A program made the position numbers and the translations under genes. The notes beneath the pieces are model-generated. The model was not told the DNA's origin and searched no databases. It saw only the letters and a list, made by a program, of their open reading frames with translations. Shown one piece after another: positions 40,721-59,230 of a stretch of 64,000 bases of DNA. Positions within the stretch are counted from its first letter, which is position 1. Each line of letters begins with the position of its first letter. The stretch comes from Mesonia sp. HuA40 (GTDB lineage Bacteria > Bacteroidota > Bacteroidia > Flavobacteriales > Flavobacteriaceae): NCBI RefSeq assembly GCF_008017835.1, contig NZ_VRLT01000028.1, positions 62,001 through 126,000 on the forward strand. Direction: 5' to 3'.

Positions 40721-41563
40721 ATGAAAAAAATTCTTGTCCCAACAGATTTTTCTGATCAAGCTGAAAATGCCTTAAAAGTAGCGGCTCAACTAGCCAAAAA
40801 CTATAATGCCGAGATATATTTACTACACATGCTTGAGCTTCCAGCTCAATTGATTGACCCCACATTAGACGGCAATCCTAACAGTTTACCCGAGGCAATT
40901 TATTTTATGAAATTAGCCCGTAAACGCTTCTCAGATGTTTTAAACAGTGATTATCTTAAAGGATTAACGGTTTACGAAACGGTTCAATTTAACGAGGCTT
41001 TTGAAGGAATTATGACTTTCTCAAACGAAAATGATGTTGATTTAGTAGTCATGGGTTCACATGGAGCAAGCGGCTTTAAGGAAATCTTCATAGGCTCAAA
41101 CACAGAAAAAGTGGTAAGAAACTCAGACATCCCTGTATTGGTTGTAAAGAACGAATTGGAAGTAAGCAAGGTTAAATCTATGGTTTATGCCACTGATCTT
41201 ATACCAAAAAATAGAGATTCTTTCTTGGAAGCAGTAAATTTCGCCAAGAAAATGAATCTTGAAATGCACGTAGTATACATTAATACTGCAAATAAATTTA
41301 AAACTGACGAATACATCAATAAGAAAAAAGCTGTTTTCTTTAAAGATGTAGATTTTGATAATTATTCTTTTGATTTATATGGAGCGGAATCTATTGAGAA
41401 AGGAATCTTAAAATTTGCTGCCTTTAAAAAAGCCTCTCTTATAGGCGTGAGTACTCATGGTAGAAAAGGGATTGCACATTTCCTAAACGGAAGCATCAGT
41501 GAAGATCTTGTAAATCACGCTAAAATACCTGTAATTACTTTTAAAATTAAAGAACAAGATTAA
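40721..41563 (+). CDS. universal stress protein with two Usp domains
   Basis: Cytoplasmic protein of 280 aa made of two Usp domains in tandem. The first (about 1-145) begins MKKILVPTDFSDQAENALKV and keeps the nucleotide-binding glycine pattern VMGSHGASGFKEIFIGSNTE. The second (about 148-280) ends GVSTHGRKGIAHFLNGSISE followed by VITFKIKEQD. Both patterns fit the ATP-binding Usp class. It is divergent from rimP and overlaps the convergent AsmA-like gene by four bases at the stops. Likely role in stress response; the signal is unknown. Confidence 0.93.
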   Translation: MKKILVPTDFSDQAENALKVAAQLAKNYNAEIYLLHMLELPAQLIDPTLDGNPNSLPEAIYFMKLARKRFSDVLNSDYLKGLTVYETVQFNEAFEGIMTFSNENDVDLVVMGSHGASGFKEIFIGSNTEKVVRNSDIPVLVVKNELEVSKVKSMVYATDLIPKNRDSFLEAVNFAKKMNLEMHVVYINTANKFKTDEYINKKKAVFFKDVDFDNYSFDLYGAESIEKGILKFAAFKKASLIGVSTHGRKGIAHFLNGSISEDLVNHAKIPVITFKIKEQD

Positions 41564-43056
41564 AGCAACTCCTTTTTAAGGCCTTTTTGTAAACAACGCC
41601 AATAGAAGTTCCAAAAAGATTTTGTTTTATCTCTTTGCACACCCGTAACCTCGACAGGCTTACGGGTTTTATTTTTGTTATTTACCAAGATATTAGCCAA
41701 CCAACTCATCACCTTCTTTTCTTTCCCATTGTTCTTAAGCACATCAAATTTAAGTTCATCATAATTCATAATCATTTCTCCTGATGCCTCATTTCGGTTA
41801 CCGCTAAAATTATAGTGCAAAGCATCAATACTACCATCAGCCTGCACACCCAAAGCCGGAATAAAAAATTTATTTATTTGGTAATCTTGCACCTCCCAAG
41901 CGCTTCCTTTAAATTGAAAAGCATCGGTAGAATCAGCTACTAGGAATGAGTACTTAAAATCTAACTTAGAAATCCCAGTAAATTCTGCTTTCAGCTCAAG
42001 CTTCGTTTCATTTCTAGAGTTGAAACTAGCTTTACCTCCGACTAAATTTTTAATAACCGCACTTACCTTTTCAAATGATACCTCACCCATTTCATCTTTT
42101 CCTAACTTTTCTTGATATTTAATAAAAGTTTCATGAACGTCTACCGAATCTATTTTAATATTAAAAGGCAGCTTACGTAACATCTCACTGTATAGCTTTT
42201 TTTGCCGCACATCATCTTTAATTGTTTTATCTCTATAAATTTGCAAATCTCCCTTTTGTATGGCCACATTGGGTATGTATAAAGAAAATATTTGACCAAA
42301 GGAGTATTTTAAATCTTTACAGGTGACACGCTCAACTTTTAGATTTATCAAATCTTTTTCGTAAGGTATGTGATTCACATACTCCGCCCTAGAATATTTA
42401 GGTGTATAAGTTAAATTATTTATTTGTAGTTGCGAGTCATTTAAGTCAAGTCTCTGCAGTTTTAAGTCTTGAAGGGTGTTTACATTTAAAAACAAATCTA
42501 GAAGTTCAAAACGATAGCTATCATAATTAATAGGTATAACTTGTTTCACTGTTTTATTATTAAGCACAACATTATTTATAGATAAATTTATTTGATTTAC
42601 CTCTGCTTTTAGCCGATCTTGCTCTAGCCATTTAAAGCTACCCTTCTGCAAATGCACTTTTTTCACCCGAATGGCATTCATTTTCATCTCCTTTTCCGCT
42701 TTCTTTTCAGGAATTGATTTATTACTCACCCATACAATTTTAGGTTGGTCAATTTGAATTTCGTCAATTGCCAACACATTCTCAAATACTAATTTTAAGA
42801 TTTGTACCCCTTTCACCTGAATTTCCTCTACCTCAAAAACAGGATCATCTCCCTTTTTATGCCAATAAAATTCAGTTAATCGTGCAGTTCTTTGCCACAG
42901 CCTGACATCAAGTTCTTTAAATACAAGCTCTCCACCTAAAAGCCCCTTGCTTAAATGTTGCTTTAATCGAAATTCGATATACCATTGCGTTCCAAAATAA
43001 CTTACTCCAACAAGTAAAATTCCGAGAAATATATATTTTAAAGTTTTACTAGCCAC
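41560..43056 (-). CDS. AsmA-like membrane-anchored protein
   Basis: A 498-aa protein with one N-terminal membrane anchor (about residues 7-25, YIFLGILLVGVSYFGTQW). The long beta-strand-rich body starts LRQHL-like and continues LVFKELDVRLWQRTARLTEFYW, then repeated short strands of the type seen in AsmA/DUF748 proteins (VQILKLVFENVLAIDEIQIDQPKIVWV). A basic C-terminus follows (NFYWRCLQKGLKKELL). AsmA-like proteins span the envelope and some carry lipids; I infer only the family type. It stands alone and converges on the Usp gene with a four-base overlap of the stop codons. Confidence 0.72.
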   Translation of the reverse strand: MASKTLKYIFLGILLVGVSYFGTQWYIEFRLKQHLSKGLLGGELVFKELDVRLWQRTARLTEFYWHKKGDDPVFEVEEIQVKGVQILKLVFENVLAIDEIQIDQPKIVWVSNKSIPEKKAEKEMKMNAIRVKKVHLQKGSFKWLEQDRLKAEVNQINLSINNVVLNNKTVKQVIPINYDSYRFELLDLFLNVNTLQDLKLQRLDLNDSQLQINNLTYTPKYSRAEYVNHIPYEKDLINLKVERVTCKDLKYSFGQIFSLYIPNVAIQKGDLQIYRDKTIKDDVRQKKLYSEMLRKLPFNIKIDSVDVHETFIKYQEKLGKDEMGEVSFEKVSAVIKNLVGGKASFNSRNETKLELKAEFTGISKLDFKYSFLVADSTDAFQFKGSAWEVQDYQINKFFIPALGVQADGSIDALHYNFSGNRNEASGEMIMNYDELKFDVLKNNGKEKKVMSWLANILVNNKNKTRKPVEVTGVQRDKTKSFWNFYWRCLQKGLKKELL

Positions 43057-43177
43057 TCCACTATAATTTTACTCTCTAAGATATGAAAGCACAATCATCC
43101 TATACGTTAAATTAAGATTAATTGGGAATATTTTAGATGTATAACAAGGCTTGAGACACTATCTTTAAAGAAAAAAA

Positions 43178-43411
43178 ATGTTGCTACGTATAGTTTTTAT
43201 TATCTTTATTCTAGGCAGCCACTCTGGTTTTGCTTACTATACTTTGTACGCAACTAATAATTTATTTACAAAATTTACCTTCTTTCTTTCAAGCGTTATT
43301 CTCATTTGCCTACTTATTCTAAAGGCAAATAAGTATATTTTTGATGATGCGTTTGAAGATAACAATGAACCAACCCGATGCGAAATTGAAAATACGGCTG
43401 AATTGCATTAG
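43178..43411 (+). CDS. small two-span membrane protein, unknown
   Basis: A 77-aa reading frame with two hydrophobic spans (about residues 2-22 and 33-51) and an acidic polar tail (DDAFEDNNEPTRCEIENTAE). It starts ATG after an A-rich stretch, and a TATCTTTA sequence lies about 10 bases upstream. I do not recognise the family. Base composition is like its neighbours and the frame has a sensible membrane-then-charged layout, but a chance reading frame cannot be excluded. Confidence 0.45.
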   Translation: MLLRIVFIIFILGSHSGFAYYTLYATNNLFTKFTFFLSSVILICLLILKANKYIFDDAFEDNNEPTRCEIENTAELH

Positions 43412-43519
43412 TGCACAAGTCAAAAAATCGCCAATCCAAACCTAAAGACTGTTTATTAAATAAAAAAATGATTTTCTAATTTAAAGTCTCCACTAAAGAA
43501 TTATACCTAATTAAATATA

Positions 43520-43630
43520 AGCAAATCTGCATATAATTTCGATGCCACAATAAAAGCATTTAGAGCAAGGTTAAAGGGAGTAAGAATACCCGAATTTTTC
43601 TTGTTTCGACTCGAAAAATTATTTGCTTAA
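43520..43630 (+). pseudogene. C-terminal remnant of an ISAon1-like (ISL3-type) transposase
   Basis: The plus strand reads AYNFDATIKAFRARLKGVR then IPEFFLFRLEKLFA and a stop. This matches the C-terminal end I know from Bacteroidetes ISAon1-type transposases (NAKIKAFR...RGV...FFLYRL.K.A). Nothing upstream extends it: stops occur before residue 1 in this frame. The piece is therefore the tail of a decayed insertion sequence. Directly downstream is a 16-bp tandem repeat that may be the element's end sequence. Confidence 0.6.
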
Positions 43631-43646
43631 AAACCCAAAAACCCAG

Positions 43647-43689
43647 AAAATGGTCTTGATCCAAAATGGTCTTGATCCGTCTTGACCCA
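43647..43689 (+). repeat. perfect 16-bp tandem repeat plus a degenerate third copy
   Basis: aaaatggtcttgatcc at 43647-43662 is repeated exactly at 43663-43678, then gtcttgaccca follows. It starts 16 bases after the stop of the transposase remnant and lies about 20 bases before the tRNA-Gln terminator. It may be the terminal repeat of the lost insertion sequence, present twice. Confidence 0.75.
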
Positions 43690-43704
43690 TTATAACCGTC
43701 TAAA

Positions 43705-43742
43705 AAGAAAAAAATCCCAACTCTAAATGAATTGGGATTTTT
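43705..43742 (-). terminator. terminator after tRNA-Gln
   Basis: Stem AAATCCCAA/TTGGGATTT (9 bp) followed on the minus strand by seven T. It begins two bases after the tRNA 3' end. Confidence 0.8.
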
Positions 43743-47321: not shown

Positions 47322-47948
47322 ATGATTATTGATGCAGTTGCTCAACTTGGTAAATTGATTTTTCCCAAACGTCTATGGCATATGCCACGCGAGGAAAAAT
47401 CAATTTATCTTACTTTTGATGATGGGCCAATTCCTGAGGTAACCCCATGGGTCTTAGAGCAATTGGCAAAGTACGAGGCTAAAGCATGCTTTTTTTGCAT
47501 AGGAGAAAATATAAAAAAGCACCCCCAGGTATTCAAAAAAATCATAACCCAAGGCCATCGCGTGGGCAATCACACCTACAACCATTTAAACGGATGGAAA
47601 ACCAATAATAAGATTTATATAGAAAACACCGAAAAGTGCGAGAATTATATTAAGTCTTCATCAAATCAAAAACTGCTTTTTAGACCACCCTATGGAAAGC
47701 TTAAGGCTAAACAAGCAAAACGTATTGCTCAAAGCCATCAAATTGTTATGTGGGATATTCTCAGCTTAGATTATAAACCAAATATTTGCATAGACAAACG
47801 TTGGGATTACATCAAAAAAAATACACGCCCGGGTAGCATTTTAGTATTTCACGACAGCTTGAAAGCCGAAAAAAACCTCAAAAAATTACTCCCTAATACC
47901 TTAGAGTATTTCTCTAATGCAGGATATCGTTTTAAATCACTTCCTTAA
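47322..47948 (+). CDS. polysaccharide deacetylase family protein
   Basis: NodB-type (CE4) deacetylase of 208 aa. The metal-site motifs are seen: TFDDGPIPEVTPWVLE (Asp-Asp pair, about residues 28-43), HRVGNHTYNH (His pair, about 79-88) and RPPYGKLK (about 120-127); late motif FHDSLKAEKN supplies the last His. The N-terminus has no clear signal peptide, only a short hydrophobic start (IIDAVAQLGKLIF). It begins six bases after the GT117 gene. Substrate could be peptidoglycan or another N-acetylated glycan. Confidence 0.92.
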   Translation: MIIDAVAQLGKLIFPKRLWHMPREEKSIYLTFDDGPIPEVTPWVLEQLAKYEAKACFFCIGENIKKHPQVFKKIITQGHRVGNHTYNHLNGWKTNNKIYIENTEKCENYIKSSSNQKLLFRPPYGKLKAKQAKRIAQSHQIVMWDILSLDYKPNICIDKRWDYIKKNTRPGSILVFHDSLKAEKNLKKLLPNTLEYFSNAGYRFKSLP

Positions 47949-48085: not shown

Positions 48086-49585
48086 TTACTCTAACGTTAA
48101 GCTAACCGAATAAATTCGAATGTTATTTCGACGTATTCCGCCACCGGCACTTATATAATGAGCATAGATTTGTATGTAGTCACCAGGATCTAAGGTTACC
48201 TTTCCTCCCAGCGGTACGGTTCGAACCCTTGTATCAGGATGACCACCCACTTCAGAGTAAATTTCTGTCCCAGATGGTATTCCTATAGGGGATCCATTAC
48301 TGTCAAAAAGTCTAATATAGAAGGCGTGAATGGTAGCACCTCCATTAGAATTAGTAGATGCAGACTGATACGATAAGTTACCCGTTACTGTAAAGGTTCT
48401 AGGTTCTTTCCCTTCGTATACTTACACATTATTGGTACCGGTAACATTGGAAGTAGAGTTTGAAAAGCGAAAAAGCTGCCCAGCACTAATCTGAGCATCT
48501 ATCGGTACCGCACTACTGACATTAAATGAAGGATTACTAGTGGTAGAGTTCTTTGTAATCTAGATGTTTCCCGAAGCGTTATTGTCTGATTCGCGAGGGA
48601 TCCCTACACAATCTATATCCCAGTTTATATCGAAATTGTAACCAGCATAAGTGTTAAATCCCGAGTAGGGCTTTACAAAATCTCCTGAACCATTAAAAAC
48701 AACATTCTTAATCACCCCCTTATTTAAGGTTGGATTGCTACTTACATCAATTCCCGTTGAACTAGCACCGACGTAAGAAAAACCGCTTGATTTTTGAATA
48801 AAATTAAACGTACCTGTAAAAGTTTCATAAGTACCGTTGTTATTAATTTGCCATCCTATGTAATTAAGAAGTAAGCTGTTTATGTAGGTATAAGTAATTC
48901 CATCTGCATTTCCGATGAACTGAAAAACATTAAAAAAAACTAGACCATAACCAGATACACTTCCAACCGAGTTAAAACCACTTACCACAACACTCTGTCC
49001 TATCAGACGTTCACTTGACGAAGCGGCCGTTAGATTAAACAGGTTTCCCGTTCCTGCGTTAATTAAGGTTACATTCCTTAAATTTCCAGAGCCATCACCA
49101 ACGAACAGACTACTGCCACCAGAATAGTTTAAAACATCTTCATTGGTATCTTGCCCAATTAAGTAAGCTCCATTTAAATCTATACTGGCGCTTAAGGTAA
49201 CGGTTCCGTTTATTTCATAGAGCGTTTGGCTGTCTAGCGTAATCACACCACCGCTTGGTGCGGGAAAATCGCTTTCACTTTTAACCAACACGTGATTATC
49301 GCGTTTGTTTTCACTGCTCAATAAGGCTAACCAGTTACTGGCGGTCTCATCGCCGGCATTGTAATAAAATTGGTTATTATCGGTATCAAATAGCAATAAA
49401 GAATTTGCAATACCAGTGGTTAGGGTATCGCGAGACGCTTAGGCTACCCTAGGTAATAAAACACCCGCAGCCTCACTTTGCACATAAAGAATAGAACTAT
49501 TATGAGGATTCTAGGTGTTTATACCTACTTGAGCAAAATCACCTAGAGTAATTAACAATTAGAGATATAAAGTTATCGATTTCAT
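48086..49585 (-). pseudogene. secreted surface protein gene broken by five in-frame stop codons
   Basis: A single 500-codon frame on the minus strand from ATG (49585) to TAA (48086) with stops at codons 9 (TAA), 25 (TAG), 49 (TAA), 342 (TAG) and 388 (TAA), and no frameshift. Read through, it starts with a signal-like segment, then AQVGINT-stop-NPHNSSILYV and GVLLPRVA-stop-ASRDTL. This matches the common Bacteroidetes start VGINT..P...L.V....LLPR for secreted proteins. The middle (NQFYYNAGDE onward) is Gly/Asn/Ser-rich and beta-helix-like. The longest uninterrupted part is 48560-49396. I do not recognise the protein's function. Confidence 0.8.
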
Positions 49586-49651
49586 TTTATCCCTTTTTGA
49601 AATCGAATATAAACACTTAATCTATAATTTTTGCACTTTAAACGTTAAGAT

Positions 49652-50875
49652 TTAAGCATTTGCAGTGCCTTTCTTCAATTTAAGTACGGTAATTTCGGGC
49701 CACATCCCTACCCTGCCTGGGTAAGCCAGGTAGCCAAACCCTCGATTTACGTAGAGATAACGATTAAACTCTTTGTAAAGTCCAGCCCAGTTTTCGTACC
49801 GATATTTTACCGGACTCCATTTGAACCAACCGGGTATTTCAATACCAAATTGCATGCCGTGGGTATGACCACTTAGAGTAAGTTGAAATTCTTTTTCGTG
49901 TGCTTTTATTTTCTCTTGCCAGTAACTCGGATCGTGGCTTAACAGTATTTTAAATTCTTCTTTGCTTAATTCCGCAGCAGCGCGATCTAAATCGCCATGC
50001 TTTACAAAACCACCTTTTCCCCAATTCTCTACACCCACAACAGCCAATTTAGCATCTCCTTTACGGATGTAAGCATGCTCGTTTAATAATAGCTTCCATC
50101 CCATTTGTTTTTGAATAGATTTTAAACGATTTAAGTTCTCTATTTTCTCTTGAGGTGAGTCCCAACGCACATAATCGCCATAATCATGGTTTCCTAATAC
50201 AGAAAAAACACCATCTTTAGCCTTAAGTTCACCAAATAACTCTTGGCAAGCATCCATTTCATCGGCGGTATTGTTCACCAAATCACCTGTAAAAAAGATA
50301 GCATCACTTTTTTGTTGGTTAATTAAATCTATTGCATATTTAACCTTCTTTAGATTATCAAAACTACCGCTATGAACATCGCTTATTTGAGTAATTTGGT
50401 AGCCATCAAAAGCCTCTGGTAAATCAGGGAAGTTTATTTCATAGGTGAGTACCTTGTAATTATATTTTCCTCTAAACATTCCGTAAAGCAAAGATCCAAA
50501 AGGAATAGCCGCCAATCCTAAAGCCAGCGTACTTACAAACTTTCTTCGGCCAGGCAAATGAGCCACTTCTGGATTAACTATTTTATTTTTTAAAAAAATT
50601 AAGGTACGAATGATATCTTCCCCCATTAAAAAAGCAATCAATACCAGTTCAGCCGACATAAAACTCAACAGCAAACCAAAAGCAAAACTGCGTTTTCCCG
50701 TAAAAACGCTTCCCACTGCTGGTTGCAACCAATAAAACAGAAAGTAGCCTAAGAAAATAAGACTTAGGCCTACAAACATAGCTTGTACCCAAAAATTTTT
50801 GCTTAGGGTTTTAATAGCTTGATAGCTGTAAAAATTAATTGCCGCATAAAATAGTATGAAAATAATCCAGCGCAT
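49652..50875 (-). CDS. membrane-bound metallophosphoesterase
   Basis: A 407-aa calcineurin-type phosphoesterase with three or four N-terminal spans (about residues 1-115). A basic stretch (LPGRRKFVSTLALGLAAIPF) leads to the catalytic domain. Metal motifs are ITQISDVHSGSFDN, FTGDLVNNT, VLGNHDYGDYVRW, LLSHDPSYW and LSGHTHGMQFG, in the family order. It resembles the YkuE/YaeI group, some of which act on lipid-linked substrates such as UDP-diacylglucosamine; that exact activity is not shown. A TAGTTTTG -7 box lies at 50895-50902. Confidence 0.93.
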   Translation of the reverse strand: MRWIIFILFYAAINFYSYQAIKTLSKNFWVQAMFVGLSLIFLGYFLFYWLQPAVGSVFTGKRSFAFGLLLSFMSAELVLIAFLMGEDIIRTLIFLKNKIVNPEVAHLPGRRKFVSTLALGLAAIPFGSLLYGMFRGKYNYKVLTYEINFPDLPEAFDGYQITQISDVHSGSFDNLKKVKYAIDLINQQKSDAIFFTGDLVNNTADEMDACQELFGELKAKDGVFSVLGNHDYGDYVRWDSPQEKIENLNRLKSIQKQMGWKLLLNEHAYIRKGDAKLAVVGVENWGKGGFVKHGDLDRAAAELSKEEFKILLSHDPSYWQEKIKAHEKEFQLTLSGHTHGMQFGIEIPGWFKWSPVKYRYENWAGLYKEFNRYLYVNRGFGYLAYPGRVGMWPEITVLKLKKGTANA

Positions 50876-54817: not shown

Positions 54818-55273
54818 GTGAATACATTAAGTTACAAAACCGTATCGGCCAACAAAAGCACCGTGAATAAGGAGTGGGTTGTGTTAGATGCAGAAGGACA
54901 ATCGTTAGGTCGTCTTTCTTCGATCGCGGCAAAGTTGATCAGAGGAAAGCACAAGCCTAATTTCACCCCGCATGTTGATTGTGGTGATAACGTAATCGTT
55001 ATAAACGCAGAAAAAATCAACCTTACAGGGAAAAAATGGGAAGCTAAGGAGTATATCCGTTACACTGGATACCCAGGCGGACAAAGAAGCTTGAATGCAG
55101 CTGGCTTATTTGAAAAAGACCCTAGAAGAGTTATTGAAAAAGCTGTAAAAGGGATGTTACCTAAAAACAAATTAGGTTCGGCCTTATTCAAAAACTTAAA
55201 GGTTTATGTTGGTTCTGAGCACGATCACGAAGCACAAAAACCTAAGAATATTAATTTAAACGAACTGGTGTAA
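54818..55273 (+). CDS. rplM: 50S ribosomal protein L13
   Basis: Large-subunit protein, 151 aa, complete. It opens with GTG (MNTLSYKTVSANKSTVNKEW) and holds WVVLDAEGQSLGRLSSIAAK (about residues 20-39) and the family core GDNVIVINAEKINLTGKKW. The C-terminus includes GMLPKNKLGSALFKNLKVY and SEHDHEAQKP. It is followed by rpsI with the stop and start adjacent, the common L13-S9 pair. The non-ATG start and the leader hairpin both suggest controlled translation. Confidence 0.98.
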   Translation: MNTLSYKTVSANKSTVNKEWVVLDAEGQSLGRLSSIAAKLIRGKHKPNFTPHVDCGDNVIVINAEKINLTGKKWEAKEYIRYTGYPGGQRSLNAAGLFEKDPRRVIEKAVKGMLPKNKLGSALFKNLKVYVGSEHDHEAQKPKNINLNELV

Positions 55274-55660
55274 ATGGAGACAATTCACAAAATAGGTCGT
55301 AGAAAAACTGCCGTAGCACGTGTATTCGTACAAGCAGGTAAAGGTGAAATTACAGTAAACAAGAAAAAGGTTAACGATTATTTCACAACTGGTACATTAC
55401 AATACAAAGTAAACCAACCTTTAATGTTAACTGGTAACGAAGAAGCTTTCGACTTAAATGTTACCGTTAAAGGAGGCGGTATTACTGGTCAAGCAGAAGC
55501 TGTACGTTTAGCTATTGCAAGAGCTATGTGCGCAATCGACGAAGAAAACAGAACGGCTTTAAAACCAGAAGGCTTACTTACAAGAGACCCAAGAATGGTT
55601 GAGCGTAAGAAGTTTGGTCAGAAGAAAGCTCGTAAGAAATTCCAATTCTCGAAACGTTAA
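55274..55660 (+). CDS. rpsI: 30S ribosomal protein S9
   Basis: Small-subunit protein, 128 aa. It starts directly after the L13 stop. Landmarks are IHKIGRRKTAVARVFVQAGK, the central VKGGGITGQAEAVRLAIARA, and the basic tail with KKFGQKKARKKFQFSKR, whose final lysine and arginine reach the P-site tRNA. A 160-base gap with possible RNA structure separates it from rpsB. Confidence 0.98.
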   Translation: METIHKIGRRKTAVARVFVQAGKGEITVNKKKVNDYFTTGTLQYKVNQPLMLTGNEEAFDLNVTVKGGGITGQAEAVRLAIARAMCAIDEENRTALKPEGLLTRDPRMVERKKFGQKKARKKFQFSKR

Positions 55661-55748
55661 TCGATTTCTGGAACGAATTAAAAAATCAATTTTAAATTTA
55701 AAGTATTTGTTGTTATTTCGCTTAAAGCGGAAGTTAGTTTAGCATCTA

Positions 55749-55793
55749 AATAGGCAAGGCCATTACACAAGTAAGCCACTTGTTTATTGCTAT
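55749..55793 (+). promoter_or_regulatory. candidate structured leader of rpsB
   Basis: An outer stem (atag-g-caa with ttgctat, one bulged G) encloses a perfect hairpin acaagt/acttgt (55767-55783). It sits 28-72 bases before the rpsB ATG. Regulation by S2 is inference. Confidence 0.35.
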
Positions 55794-55820
55794 CTCAACA
55801 GAACGTAAACTATTACAAAA

Positions 55821-56591
55821 ATGGCAAACAAAGTAGAAGTTAAAGAATTACTTGATGCAGGTGTACACTTTGGTCACCTAACAAGAAGATGGAACCCCAA
55901 CATGGCGCCTTACATTTATATGGAGCGCAACGGGATTCACATCATCAACTTATATAAAAGTGCAGCTAAAATGGAAGAGGCGGCAAACGCCCTTAGCAAA
56001 ATCGCTGCCAGCGGTAGAAAAATTTTATTTGTAGCTACCAAAAAACAAGCAAAAGAAATTGTTGCAGAAGAAGCTGAAAGAGCAAATATGCCATACATTA
56101 CAGAGCGTTGGCCTGGAGGTATGCTTACCAACTTTGTTACGATTAGAAAAGCCGTAAAGAAAATGGCTTCTATCGATAGAATGAAAAAAGATGGTACTTT
56201 CAACTCACTTTCTAAAAAAGAACGTTTACAAGTAGACCGTTTACGTGCAAAATTAGAAAAGAACTTAGGTTCTATCTCTGATATGACACGCTTACCTGGA
56301 GCACTATTTGTAGTAGACATCACTCGTGAACATATCGCGATTAAAGAAGCTCAAAAATTAAACATTCCTATTTTTGCGATGGTTGATACCAACTCTGATC
56401 CACGTGAGGTAGATTACGTAATCCCATCAAACGATGACGCTTCTAAATCAATTAAGAAAGTAATCTCTTACGTTTCAGATGCGATAGTTGACGGTTTGCA
56501 AGAAAGAAAAGCAGACAAAGACGCTAAAAAAGAAGTGAAAGCGGCCAAAAAACAAGCCGAAACTAAAGAGGCAACTCAAGAAGATAAATAA
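55821..56591 (+). CDS. rpsB: 30S ribosomal protein S2
   Basis: Small-subunit protein, 256 aa. It has the family start [20 protein letters not shown], then [20 protein letters not shown] and [40 protein letters not shown] precedes the [20 protein letters not shown] segment. A C-terminal Lys/Glu-rich extension of about 30 residues is typical for Bacteroidetes. tsf follows after 97 bases with a nested hairpin between them. Confidence 0.98.
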
Positions 56592-56612
56592 AATAATCGT
56601 TTTATAATCTAT

Positions 56613-56668
56613 GCTAAGTCGTTTAGTAATTTTATTGTAAAATAGAGTTGCAAACGACTTTGCTTTTT
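56613..56668 (+). terminator. nested hairpin between rpsB and tsf, possible partial terminator
   Basis: Outer 9-bp stem aagtcgttt/aaacgactt (56616-56624 with 56652-56660) encloses an inner perfect stem atttta/taaaat (56629-56643). A tgcttttt tail follows. This could lower tsf expression relative to rpsB or be a processing site. Confidence 0.5.
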
Positions 56669-56688
56669 AAAATTAAAATCTGAAAAAA

Positions 56689-57654
56689 ATGGCAAAAATA
56701 ACTGCTGCAGAAGTAAATAAATTAAGAAAATCTACCGGTGCCGGTATGATGGATTGTAAAAAAGCTTTAGTAGAAGCCGAAGGTGACTTTGACAAGGCTA
56801 TTGAAGTATTACGTAAAAAAGGGCAAAAAGTAGCGGCAAAAAGAGCAGACAGAGAGTCTTCTGAAGGTGCTGCTGTAGCCAAAGTAAACGCCGAAGAAAA
56901 CAAAGGTGTAGCTATTGTTTTAGGTTGCGAAACTGACTTCGTAGGTAAAAACGAGAATTTCTTGCAATTAGCAAGTGAGTTGGGCGAATTGGCCTTAAAC
57001 TATGAAACTAAAGAAGAGTTTTTAGCTGCAGACTTTAACGGGATGAGTGTAGCCGATAAACTTGTTGAGCAAACTGGAGTTATTGGTGAAAAATTAGATA
57101 TTAATGCTTTTGAGGTAGTTAAAGCTCCTTTTGTAGCGTCTTACGTGCACATTAACAAAATTGCTGCCGTAGTTGGATTCTCTGCTAAAGTAGATAACGC
57201 AGAAACCTTAGGTAAAGATGTTGCCATGCAAATTGCCTCAATGGGCGCAACGGCATTGTCTTACAAAGATCTTGACCCTGCATTCGTAGCTTCTGAAACC
57301 GAAGCTAGAATTGCCGAAATCGAAAAAGGAAATATAGAACTTGAGCGTTTAGGTAAAACCAAGAAAAACGTACCACAGTTTATCTCTATGTCACAAATTA
57401 CTCCCGAAGTAATGGCTAAAGCCGAAGAAGATGCGAAAGCAGAACTTAAAGCTGAAGGAAAACCAGAGAAAATTTGGGATAGAATCTTACCAGGTAAAAT
57501 GGATCGTTTCTTATCTGATAACACTACTCTTGATAAAGAGATGTGCTTATTAGACCAAACTTTTATCAAAGATGATAAGAAAAACGTAGCCGAGTATGTA
57601 GCTTCTTATGGAGAGGTTAGCATTACTGAATTTAAGCGTGTTTCTTTAGGATAA
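56689..57654 (+). CDS. tsf: translation elongation factor Ts
   Basis: Guanine nucleotide exchange factor for EF-Tu. It has 321 aa. The N-terminal UBA-like domain is AAEVNKLRKSTGAGMMDCKK with ALVEAEGDFDKAIEVLRKKG. The TDFVGKNENF segment is the EF-Tu-contacting core motif. The second core half runs to the end (LPGKMDRFLSDNTTLDKEMC, SITEFKRVSLG). It lies after rpsB and before a strong terminator. Expression of the pair may be split by the hairpin upstream. Confidence 0.98.
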   Translation: MAKITAAEVNKLRKSTGAGMMDCKKALVEAEGDFDKAIEVLRKKGQKVAAKRADRESSEGAAVAKVNAEENKGVAIVLGCETDFVGKNENFLQLASELGELALNYETKEEFLAADFNGMSVADKLVEQTGVIGEKLDINAFEVVKAPFVASYVHINKIAAVVGFSAKVDNAETLGKDVAMQIASMGATALSYKDLDPAFVASETEARIAEIEKGNIELERLGKTKKNVPQFISMSQITPEVMAKAEEDAKAELKAEGKPEKIWDRILPGKMDRFLSDNTTLDKEMCLLDQTFIKDDKKNVAEYVASYGEVSITEFKRVSLG

Positions 57655-57679
57655 TTAAAATTCAAACACTTATAAACAC

Positions 57680-57713
57680 AGCCTACAACTTAAAAAGTTG
57701 TAGGCTTTTTTTT
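57680..57713 (+). terminator. strong terminator after tsf
   Basis: Perfect 10-bp stem gcctacaact/agttgtaggc with a five-base loop followed by eight T. It starts 27 bases after the tsf stop. Confidence 0.92.
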
Positions 57714-57893
57714 ACCTTAATTTGATTGTGTCTAAGCTAAAAAAAGTTAAATCCAAGATTAACACTCAATTAATGCTATGCTACTCTATCCTCAATAACA
57801 AAATTTAAAGCCTAAAACATTCTTGCTACCCAAAAAGGTCTAGTCAAATGAATGGTTTTTTTACATGCCGTTTTTCAAACTTTAGAATATGCG

Positions 57894-57901
57894 TATATTT
57901 G
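57894..57901 (+). promoter_or_regulatory. promoter -7 box of pyrH-frr
   Basis: TATATTTG fits TAnnTTTG and ends 21 bases before the chosen pyrH ATG. It lies inside a longer in-frame extension, so it also argues for the start at 57923. Confidence 0.5.
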
Positions 57902-57922
57902 CGCAACTTTACGACACAACTT

Positions 57923-58630
57923 ATGCAATACAAAAGAATTTTATTAAAACTATCTGGAGAAGCTTTAATGGGCAATCGCCAGTATGGGATTGACCCAGAA
58001 AGACTTGCCGAATATGCTGCAGAAATTAAATCGGTTACCGATAAAGGCGTACAAGTAGCTATCGTAATTGGTGGTGGTAACATTTTTAGAGGAGTAGCCG
58101 GAGCCAGCAAGGGTATGGATCGCGTTCAAGGTGACCACATGGGGATGCTAGCCACAGTTATCAACGGCTTAGCCCTACAAAGTGCTTGTGAAGATGCCGG
58201 AATTCCTACTCGCCTGCAATCAGCAGTAAAAATTAATGAAGTTGCCGAACCTTTTATCCGCCGAAAGGCTATGAGACATTTAGATAAAGGCCGTGTGGTA
58301 ATTTTTGGCGGTGGTACAGGTAATCCTTATTTCACTACAGACTCTGCAGCTGTACTACGTGCCATAGAGATCAATGCCGATGTGATTTTAAAAGGCACAC
58401 GAGTAGATGGAATTTACACAGCAGATCCCGAAAAGAACACCGAAGCAACAAAATTTGATTTTATTACTTTTGATGATGTACTCCGCAAAGGACTAAAAGT
58501 TATGGATACTACCGCTTTTACCTTGAGCCAAGAAAACCAATTGCCAATAATTGTATTTGATATGAACAAGCCCGGTAATTTATTAAAAGTAGTACACGGC
58601 GAAAACATTGGTACTAAAGTAAACTTGTAA
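57923..58630 (+). CDS. pyrH: uridylate kinase (UMP kinase)
   Basis: Phosphorylates UMP to UDP in pyrimidine synthesis; bacterial hexameric type. It has 235 aa from [17 protein letters not shown]; a longer frame from 57848 is rejected as it runs through a promoter. Seen are the nucleotide-binding [40 protein letters not shown] and [20 protein letters not shown], and the C-terminal [14 protein letters not shown]. It is followed by frr after 45 bases, a common pair. Confidence 0.97.
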
Positions 58631-58675
58631 AAGACTTATCGTATATTTGACAACCAGTTTATAAATTGTAAAACC

Positions 58676-59230
58676 ATGAACGAAGAGATAGAATTAATTA
58701 TAGACAGCACCGAGGAGGCCATGCAAAATGCTATTAAGCATTTAGAAAAAGAATTAATTAAAATTAGAGCCGGTAAAGCTAGTCCTAATATGGTAAGTTC
58801 GGTTTTGGTAGAGTATTACGGAAGCAAAACACCGCTTAACCAGGTGGGAAATATCAACACCCCAGATGCACGTACCATTTCTATTCAGCCATTTGAAAAA
58901 TCATTGATTCCCGAAATTGAAAAAGGGATTATGAATGCCAACCTAGGCTTTAACCCTATGAATAATGGAGAAAGTGTAATCATCAATGTTCCTCCCTTAA
59001 CCGAAGAGCGTCGTAGAGAATTAGCTAAACAAGCAAAAGCTGTAGCCGAAGATGCCAAAGTGGGTGTACGTAATGATCGAAAAAATGCCAATAACGAATT
59101 GAAAAAATTAGATCTATCTGAAGATATGCTTAAAGGAGCTGAAGCTGATGTGCAAGAGCTTACCGATAAACACGTCACAAAAATAGATGACATTCTAAAA
59201 GTAAAGGAAAAAGAAATTATGACGGTTTAA
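58676..59230 (+). CDS. frr: ribosome recycling factor
   Basis: With EF-G it splits post-termination ribosomes. It has 184 aa, complete: domain I three-helix bundle (LIIDSTEEAMQNAIKHLEKE, LIKIRAGKASPNMVSSVLVE) and domain II beta/alpha (NTPDARTISIQPFEKSLIPE). The closing helix holds LTEERRRELAKQAKAVAEDA. It is the last gene before a terminator at 59251-59277. Confidence 0.98.
   Translation: MNEEIELIIDSTEEAMQNAIKHLEKELIKIRAGKASPNMVSSVLVEYYGSKTPLNQVGNINTPDARTISIQPFEKSLIPEIEKGIMNANLGFNPMNNGESVIINVPPLTEERRRELAKQAKAVAEDAKVGVRNDRKNANNELKKLDLSEDMLKGAEADVQELTDKHVTKIDDILKVKEKEIMTV

Follow-up and report, generated by a model that had tools for sequence, protein, structure and literature searches.

The minus strand of the window (the whole 64-kb stretch of DNA analysed here, part of a 207,604-base contig in the draft genome of Mesonia sp. 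HuA40, 2.64 Mb in 62 contigs and 99.76% complete) holds a single frame of 500 codons, i.e., 499 and a final stop, whose translation is interrupted by in-frame stops at codons 9, 25, 49, 342, and 388 (TAA, TAG, TAA, TAG, and TAA) and by no frameshift (Table 1). The preliminary description of this DNA had claimed such a continuous frame and had suggested an alignment to an intact homologue as a check. The translation bears out the claim and the alignment keeps to a single frame, as the sequence aligns over its full length, without any gap (MAFFT, and BLAST with other gap costs), to the intact gene at the same place in a related genome, G001 (uncultured Mesonia sp., contig taken as CANMOY010000006.1). 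With default settings, BLAST places a pair of 1-base gaps at 48132/48135 that compensate each other and leave the frame further on unaffected, and it counts 84 differences instead of the 87 found without gaps. Homology extends through all five stops, and the single frame is therefore not a chance reading. Three of the stop codons differ from the G001 sense codon at one base, and the remaining two at two bases. In the mechanical list of ORFs only the middle piece of the frame appears, as 278 codons starting from a TTG, and the warning that this part could be miscalled as a gene was thus a fair one.

Table 1. Features of the disabled frame and its surroundings, in positions of the window.
Feature	Position	Strand	Basis
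Pseudogene of a 499-codon secreted beta-helix protein (predicted fold), with the original stop at its 3' end	48086-49585	-	translation and comparison
Signal peptide and QVGINT-type module at the N-terminus (codons 1-49), interrupted by three in-frame stops (9, 25, 49)	49439-49585	-	
278-codon ORF of the mechanical list, lying within the pseudogene and starting at TTG; covers the predicted beta-helix body	48560-49396	-	
In-frame stop, codon 342 (TAG)	48560-48562	-	translation
In-frame stop, codon 388 (TAA)	48422-48424	-	translation
C-terminal end of the former protein (predicted jelly-roll region), with the original stop	48086-48421	-	
Open upstream neighbour, presumably metallophosphatase-like; synteny anchor	49652-50875	-	
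Open downstream neighbour, presumably polysaccharide-deacetylase-like; synteny anchor	47322-47948	+	

The window and the G001 contig are collinear from end to end, with 95.2% identity. Searching 60 genomes with the middle piece of the frame gave matches in 12 (HuA40 counted in both numbers), the closest outside HuA40 being that in G001 (93% identity), which sits in an open frame of 509 codons, or 499 when counted from the homologous ATG. This copy has the same place and the same length, and carries no stops. The HuA40 frame thus shows disabling mutations against an intact orthologue at the same place, as a unitary pseudogene would, and no second full-length copy was found in the draft genome, where the other match covers residues 3-72 only. 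Immediately flanking the frame, there are single-base gaps relative to G001 at 49599 (upstream) and 48032 (downstream), showing that indels do accumulate in the DNA of this region. For the deacetylase-like neighbour, dN/dS is raised (0.24), though the gene is open in both genomes. Elsewhere in the window, a 498-codon ORF (41560-43056, minus strand) and the spacer by a tRNA-Gln (43057-43742) are far more divergent from G001 than the rest (dN 0.113, dS 0.50, clustered gaps), as a spot of recombination or diversification would be, and a block of six ORFs (54818-59230, plus strand) has low silent divergence (dS 0.01-0.11).

The G001 contig has 172 ORFs with a length of 100 codons or more, of which 120 have a near-full-length, stop-free counterpart in the HuA40 genome and four show stops there: the gene under study (five), a 228-codon ORF (one), and two short ORFs matched in part (one and two stops). 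For the remaining 48 there is either no match or a partial one, many of these ORFs lying in unaligned stretches. The 228-codon ORF with its single in-frame stop lies outside the window (G000:C54 169970-170650). In the reverse direction, 120 of 168 HuA40 ORFs are near-full-length and stop-free in G001, and two show one stop, one of these being doubtful as it lies opposite longer minus-strand ORFs.

In the genus, copies spanning at least 400 residues occur in 10 of 16 genomes, HuA40 included (13 rows, hand count), and only the HuA40 copy carries stops. A full-length copy was not found in the other six genomes, and the gene therefore looks dispensable. One of these six, G012, is a third close genome with 92% DNA identity nearby (G012:C28 17334-18768; L096, L099), in which the frame was not found and the assembly has a gap at the locus, the contig ending inside the metallophosphatase-like gene. 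The stretches of approximately 4.2 kb that surround the metallophosphatase-like gene in G004, G006, G007, G008, and G015 showed no recognisable remnant of the gene under study (best E 0.52); beside the metallophosphatase-like gene, G004 and G015 carry an open stretch of 106 and 111 codons, respectively, which we take to be thioredoxin-like. In 397 genomes of the Flavobacteriaceae, with at most three candidates scored per genome, at least 59 hold a copy spanning at least 400 residues (at least 66 rows, hand count). Among the 66 matches listed, 64 are without stops, HuA40 has five, and one other has one; also among the matches listed, one further genome of the family has the gene in two pieces, one of them with a stop. 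Intact copies are the rule in the family, and absence is common.

The intact orthologues of Mesonia and Flavobacterium belong to the same protein family and lie in a similar neighbourhood, but their frames are open, unlike that of HuA40. Neighbours that we assume to be polA-, metallophosphatase-, deacetylase-, and DUF2723-like were matched in 12 of 13 loci of the two genera. In the two Mesonia loci the gene lies between the metallophosphatase-like and deacetylase-like genes, whereas in Flavobacterium it is found near the same genes but on the other side of the metallophosphatase-like one. The orthologue of M. algae DSM 15361 (L017) shares 61% identity, and the other 11 aligned sequences 37-43%. 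The N-terminal ∼70-90 residues also match frames of ∼150 to 1490 codons in many Flavobacteriaceae, as a shared module would.

A structure model of the 499-residue G001 protein, based on 13 sequences (mean pLDDT 75.7, pTM 0.67), shows an N-terminus of low confidence, helical where the signal peptide lies, followed by a body rich in beta structure (about residues 97 to 327) that we take for a parallel beta-helix and, at the C-terminal end, by a jelly roll. The prediction for the intact protein is thus a secreted spike of beta-helix type that ends in a TNF/C1q-like domain, and from fold and export signal our guess would be a surface spike that binds or trims polysaccharide. Such a predicted succession of a beta-rich, helix-like body and a TNF/C1q-like jelly roll would be shared with phage tailspikes and tail fibres. 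Foldseek linked the whole chain to phage tailspikes, with a low whole-chain TM (0.19-0.27 to the seven best PDB tailspike or tail-fibre chains), and its matches for the end domain were TNF-like, exosporium, and phage receptor-binding domains. The best BFVD matches are three unnamed viral proteins (E 2e-20 to 5e-18, TM by query 0.44-0.45). At the sequence level, five of the 13 relatives matched a PHROG tail-fibre family (best E 6.4e-6); the modelled G001 protein had no PHROG match, and tblastn against 50,697 phage records gave no match at E 1e-3. A PDB sequence search with the family profile returned one chance-level match (E 0.16), no NCBIfam model matched the family, and Pfam gave chance-level matches only, none convincing. 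Unlike phage spikes, the protein has a signal peptide and its locus lies among chromosomal genes, with the neighbourhood kept in the 12 of 13 loci mentioned above, rather than in a phage or prophage.

Between HuA40 and G001, the frame has dN 0.042 and dS 0.117, a ratio of 0.36 (Nei-Gojobori), whereas the 42 other ORFs of the window, which were chosen as open in it, pool to uncorrected proportions of 0.0112 for nonsynonymous and 0.176 for synonymous sites (ratio 0.064). The corresponding counts of differences are 47:37 for the frame versus 488:2039 for the other ORFs (p = 3.6e-13). Polarisation by up to seven outgroup sequences (G013, trimmed by the start rule, adds nothing before codon 48) assigned 19 missense codons and three stops to the window branch and 12 missense codons to the sister branch, with seven missense codons and two stops assigned to neither; 16 silent codons fall on each branch and one on neither. 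In a codon model with five outgroups and stops treated as missing, the fit without separate tip values is 19 units worse. The profile for the window branch has omega values of 1 and 1.5 tied as best among those scanned, 0.1 being worse by 4.4 log units and the curve nearly flat from 0.3 to 10, which fixes omega only as above about 0.2; the estimate itself is unstable (8.6 with shared background, 1.3 with both tips free). We think that the flat profile stems from saturation of silent sites in the outgroups. The constraint on the frame is relaxed on the window branch. Relaxed selection on the disabled branch, a further mark of unitary pseudogenes, is thus found, though the parsimony contrast between the two branches (24:16 versus 12:16, when unplaced missense codons are ignored and the window branch is credited with all five stops) is not significant alone (p = 0.22).

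The upstream neighbour, with a dS of 0.32, has more silent divergence than the frame. Such a difference is not what plain long decay would produce, and it may reflect recombination or rate variation. The transition share differs slightly between the frame and intergenic DNA (p = 0.04). Adjacent pairs of changed codons number 20, versus 11.5 expected (p = 0.0035); we dropped this clustering as a signal, since several open genes with at least 20 changed codons cluster as much or more.

We conclude that what happened here is, very probably, a recent and lineage-specific loss of a chromosomal gene for a secreted surface beta-helix protein, after the split from the G001 lineage. Very recent loss had been among the options considered at the outset, and it is supported by the intact syntenic orthologue, the relaxed constraint, and the few accumulated changes. 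A first disabling change would have freed the frame from selection, and the remaining stops and the missense changes would then have collected neutrally; translation would now stop after 8 residues, within the signal peptide, so that no working protein would be made. The locus is an ordinary, recent pseudogene, whose oddity is mild and beyond one gene to settle.

That oddity, five nonsense changes and no indel, had been put forward on the premise that indels should have built up as well. The window branch carries about 46 base changes, or 55 with every unplaced one added (hand count), and from the excess of protein-changing over silent changes we estimate that about 26 (16-35) occurred since the death of the gene. 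In the noncoding DNA of the aligned contig parts, 939 substitutions come with 59-76 indel events (the range reflects different ways of counting clustered gaps), i.e., 0.063-0.081 per substitution. The window alone has 25 indels per 377 substitutions, and a lower trial rate of 13 per 377 was chosen to discount clustered gaps, and is not a count. For 26-48 changes, about 0.9-3.9 indels are expected, and the probability of seeing none is about 0.02-0.4 by the rate used: 0.12-0.20 for 26 changes and 0.02-0.05 for 48 with the contig rates, and 0.41 and 0.19 with the low trial rate. The premise is therefore right in part, and the absent indels are weak evidence of anything special; their lack would be due mainly to the short time since the death of the gene and the few changes, and partly to luck and to the picking of a striking case.

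The excess of stops is harder to dismiss. If substitutions follow the pattern seen in intergenic DNA, the probability that a random change in the gene creates a stop is 0.0395, and 0.8, 1.0, 1.9, and 2.4 stops are expected for 20, 26, 48, and 60 changes; the probability of at least five, in a gene picked for its stops, is then 0.0009, 0.003, 0.04, and 0.09, respectively. The expected local share of nonsense among disabling changes is about 0.33-0.39. In the Salmonella pseudogene survey, 346 of 378 pseudogenes had a single disabling change, and this was nonsense in 131 of the 346 (Kuo and Ochman, 2010, PMC2916853). All five disabling changes would be nonsense with a probability of 0.004-0.009 with the local indel rates, and of 0.008 with the Salmonella share, again for a gene picked for its stops. 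The split of five to zero that had first drawn attention is thus unusual but not extreme, its value being uncorrected for choice and taken after the fact because the gene was reported for its stops.

If the stop excess were not luck, partial products might have been harmful, with selection for further early stops after the first loss, and the added stops would silence re-initiated or truncated fragments of the secreted beta-helix protein. We consider this quite unlikely; it would resemble the non-neutral decay that Kuo and Ochman argued for on other grounds (PMC2916853).

Selection on part of the frame, another option raised earlier, would mean that the open middle run (codons 50-341, 48563-49438) is still expressed from an internal start as a shorter protein. 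This longest run free of stops counts 292 codons, including the 278-codon TTG ORF, which is only mildly unusual in length if five stops are placed at random (P = 0.073); it has the lowest pairwise dN/dS (0.25), and would hold the entire predicted beta-helix body. Yet it is without the signal peptide and the end domain, and its ratio of protein-changing to silent changes on the window branch does not set it apart from the ends (10:8 versus 14:8, Fisher p = 0.75). The branch model shows no constraint in the run either, though this estimate is unreliable, with omega at or near its bound. Such a use of the middle run thus finds no support, and we regard it as very unlikely.

We also hold it for highly improbable that the stops are base errors or stem from strain mixing in the assembly. 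The assembly is a draft in 62 contigs, and spurious internal stops are common in poor assemblies (PMC11017572). But identity to G001 is as high throughout the window as given above, and the 42 other ORFs (chosen as open in the window) show no stop in the G001 DNA and mostly have low dN/dS. Stops in HuA40 are confined to the four of 172 G001 ORFs described above, two of them short partial matches, and random errors are not expected to raise the missense share in one gene only. Finally, read-through or recoding of the stops, with the protein made whole, is hardly conceivable, even though the frame is continuous and resembles intact relatives from end to end. All five stops, which are of two kinds, would have to be suppressed, and of the 38 tRNA matches in the draft genome, all covered by ARAGORN, not one has an anticodon for a stop codon (TAA, TAG, TGA; the draft assembly may lack some tRNAs). 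TAA is the ordinary end of the neighbouring, presumably metallophosphatase-like gene, and the relaxed constraint also counts against read-through.

The recent pseudogene of HuA40 resembles the Salmonella cases in that the loss is specific to a lineage and the neighbouring genes are conserved, and in its type of disabling change, nonsense being a common one there; it differs from most of them in its five disabling changes without an indel (PMC2916853). Searches of the literature on nonsense-only pseudogenes, Mesonia pseudogenes, and the protein module gave nothing on the HuA40 gene among the papers listed. The value of the case is mainly one of annotation, in that the 278-codon middle ORF belongs to a pseudogene and needs to be labelled accordingly. 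In Flavobacteriaceae the protein family is common (near-full-length in the at least 59 of 397 genomes noted above), and it is hit by no NCBIfam model and no convincing Pfam model. The nonsense excess, if repeated in other young pseudogenes, would bear on the neutrality of bacterial pseudogene decay.
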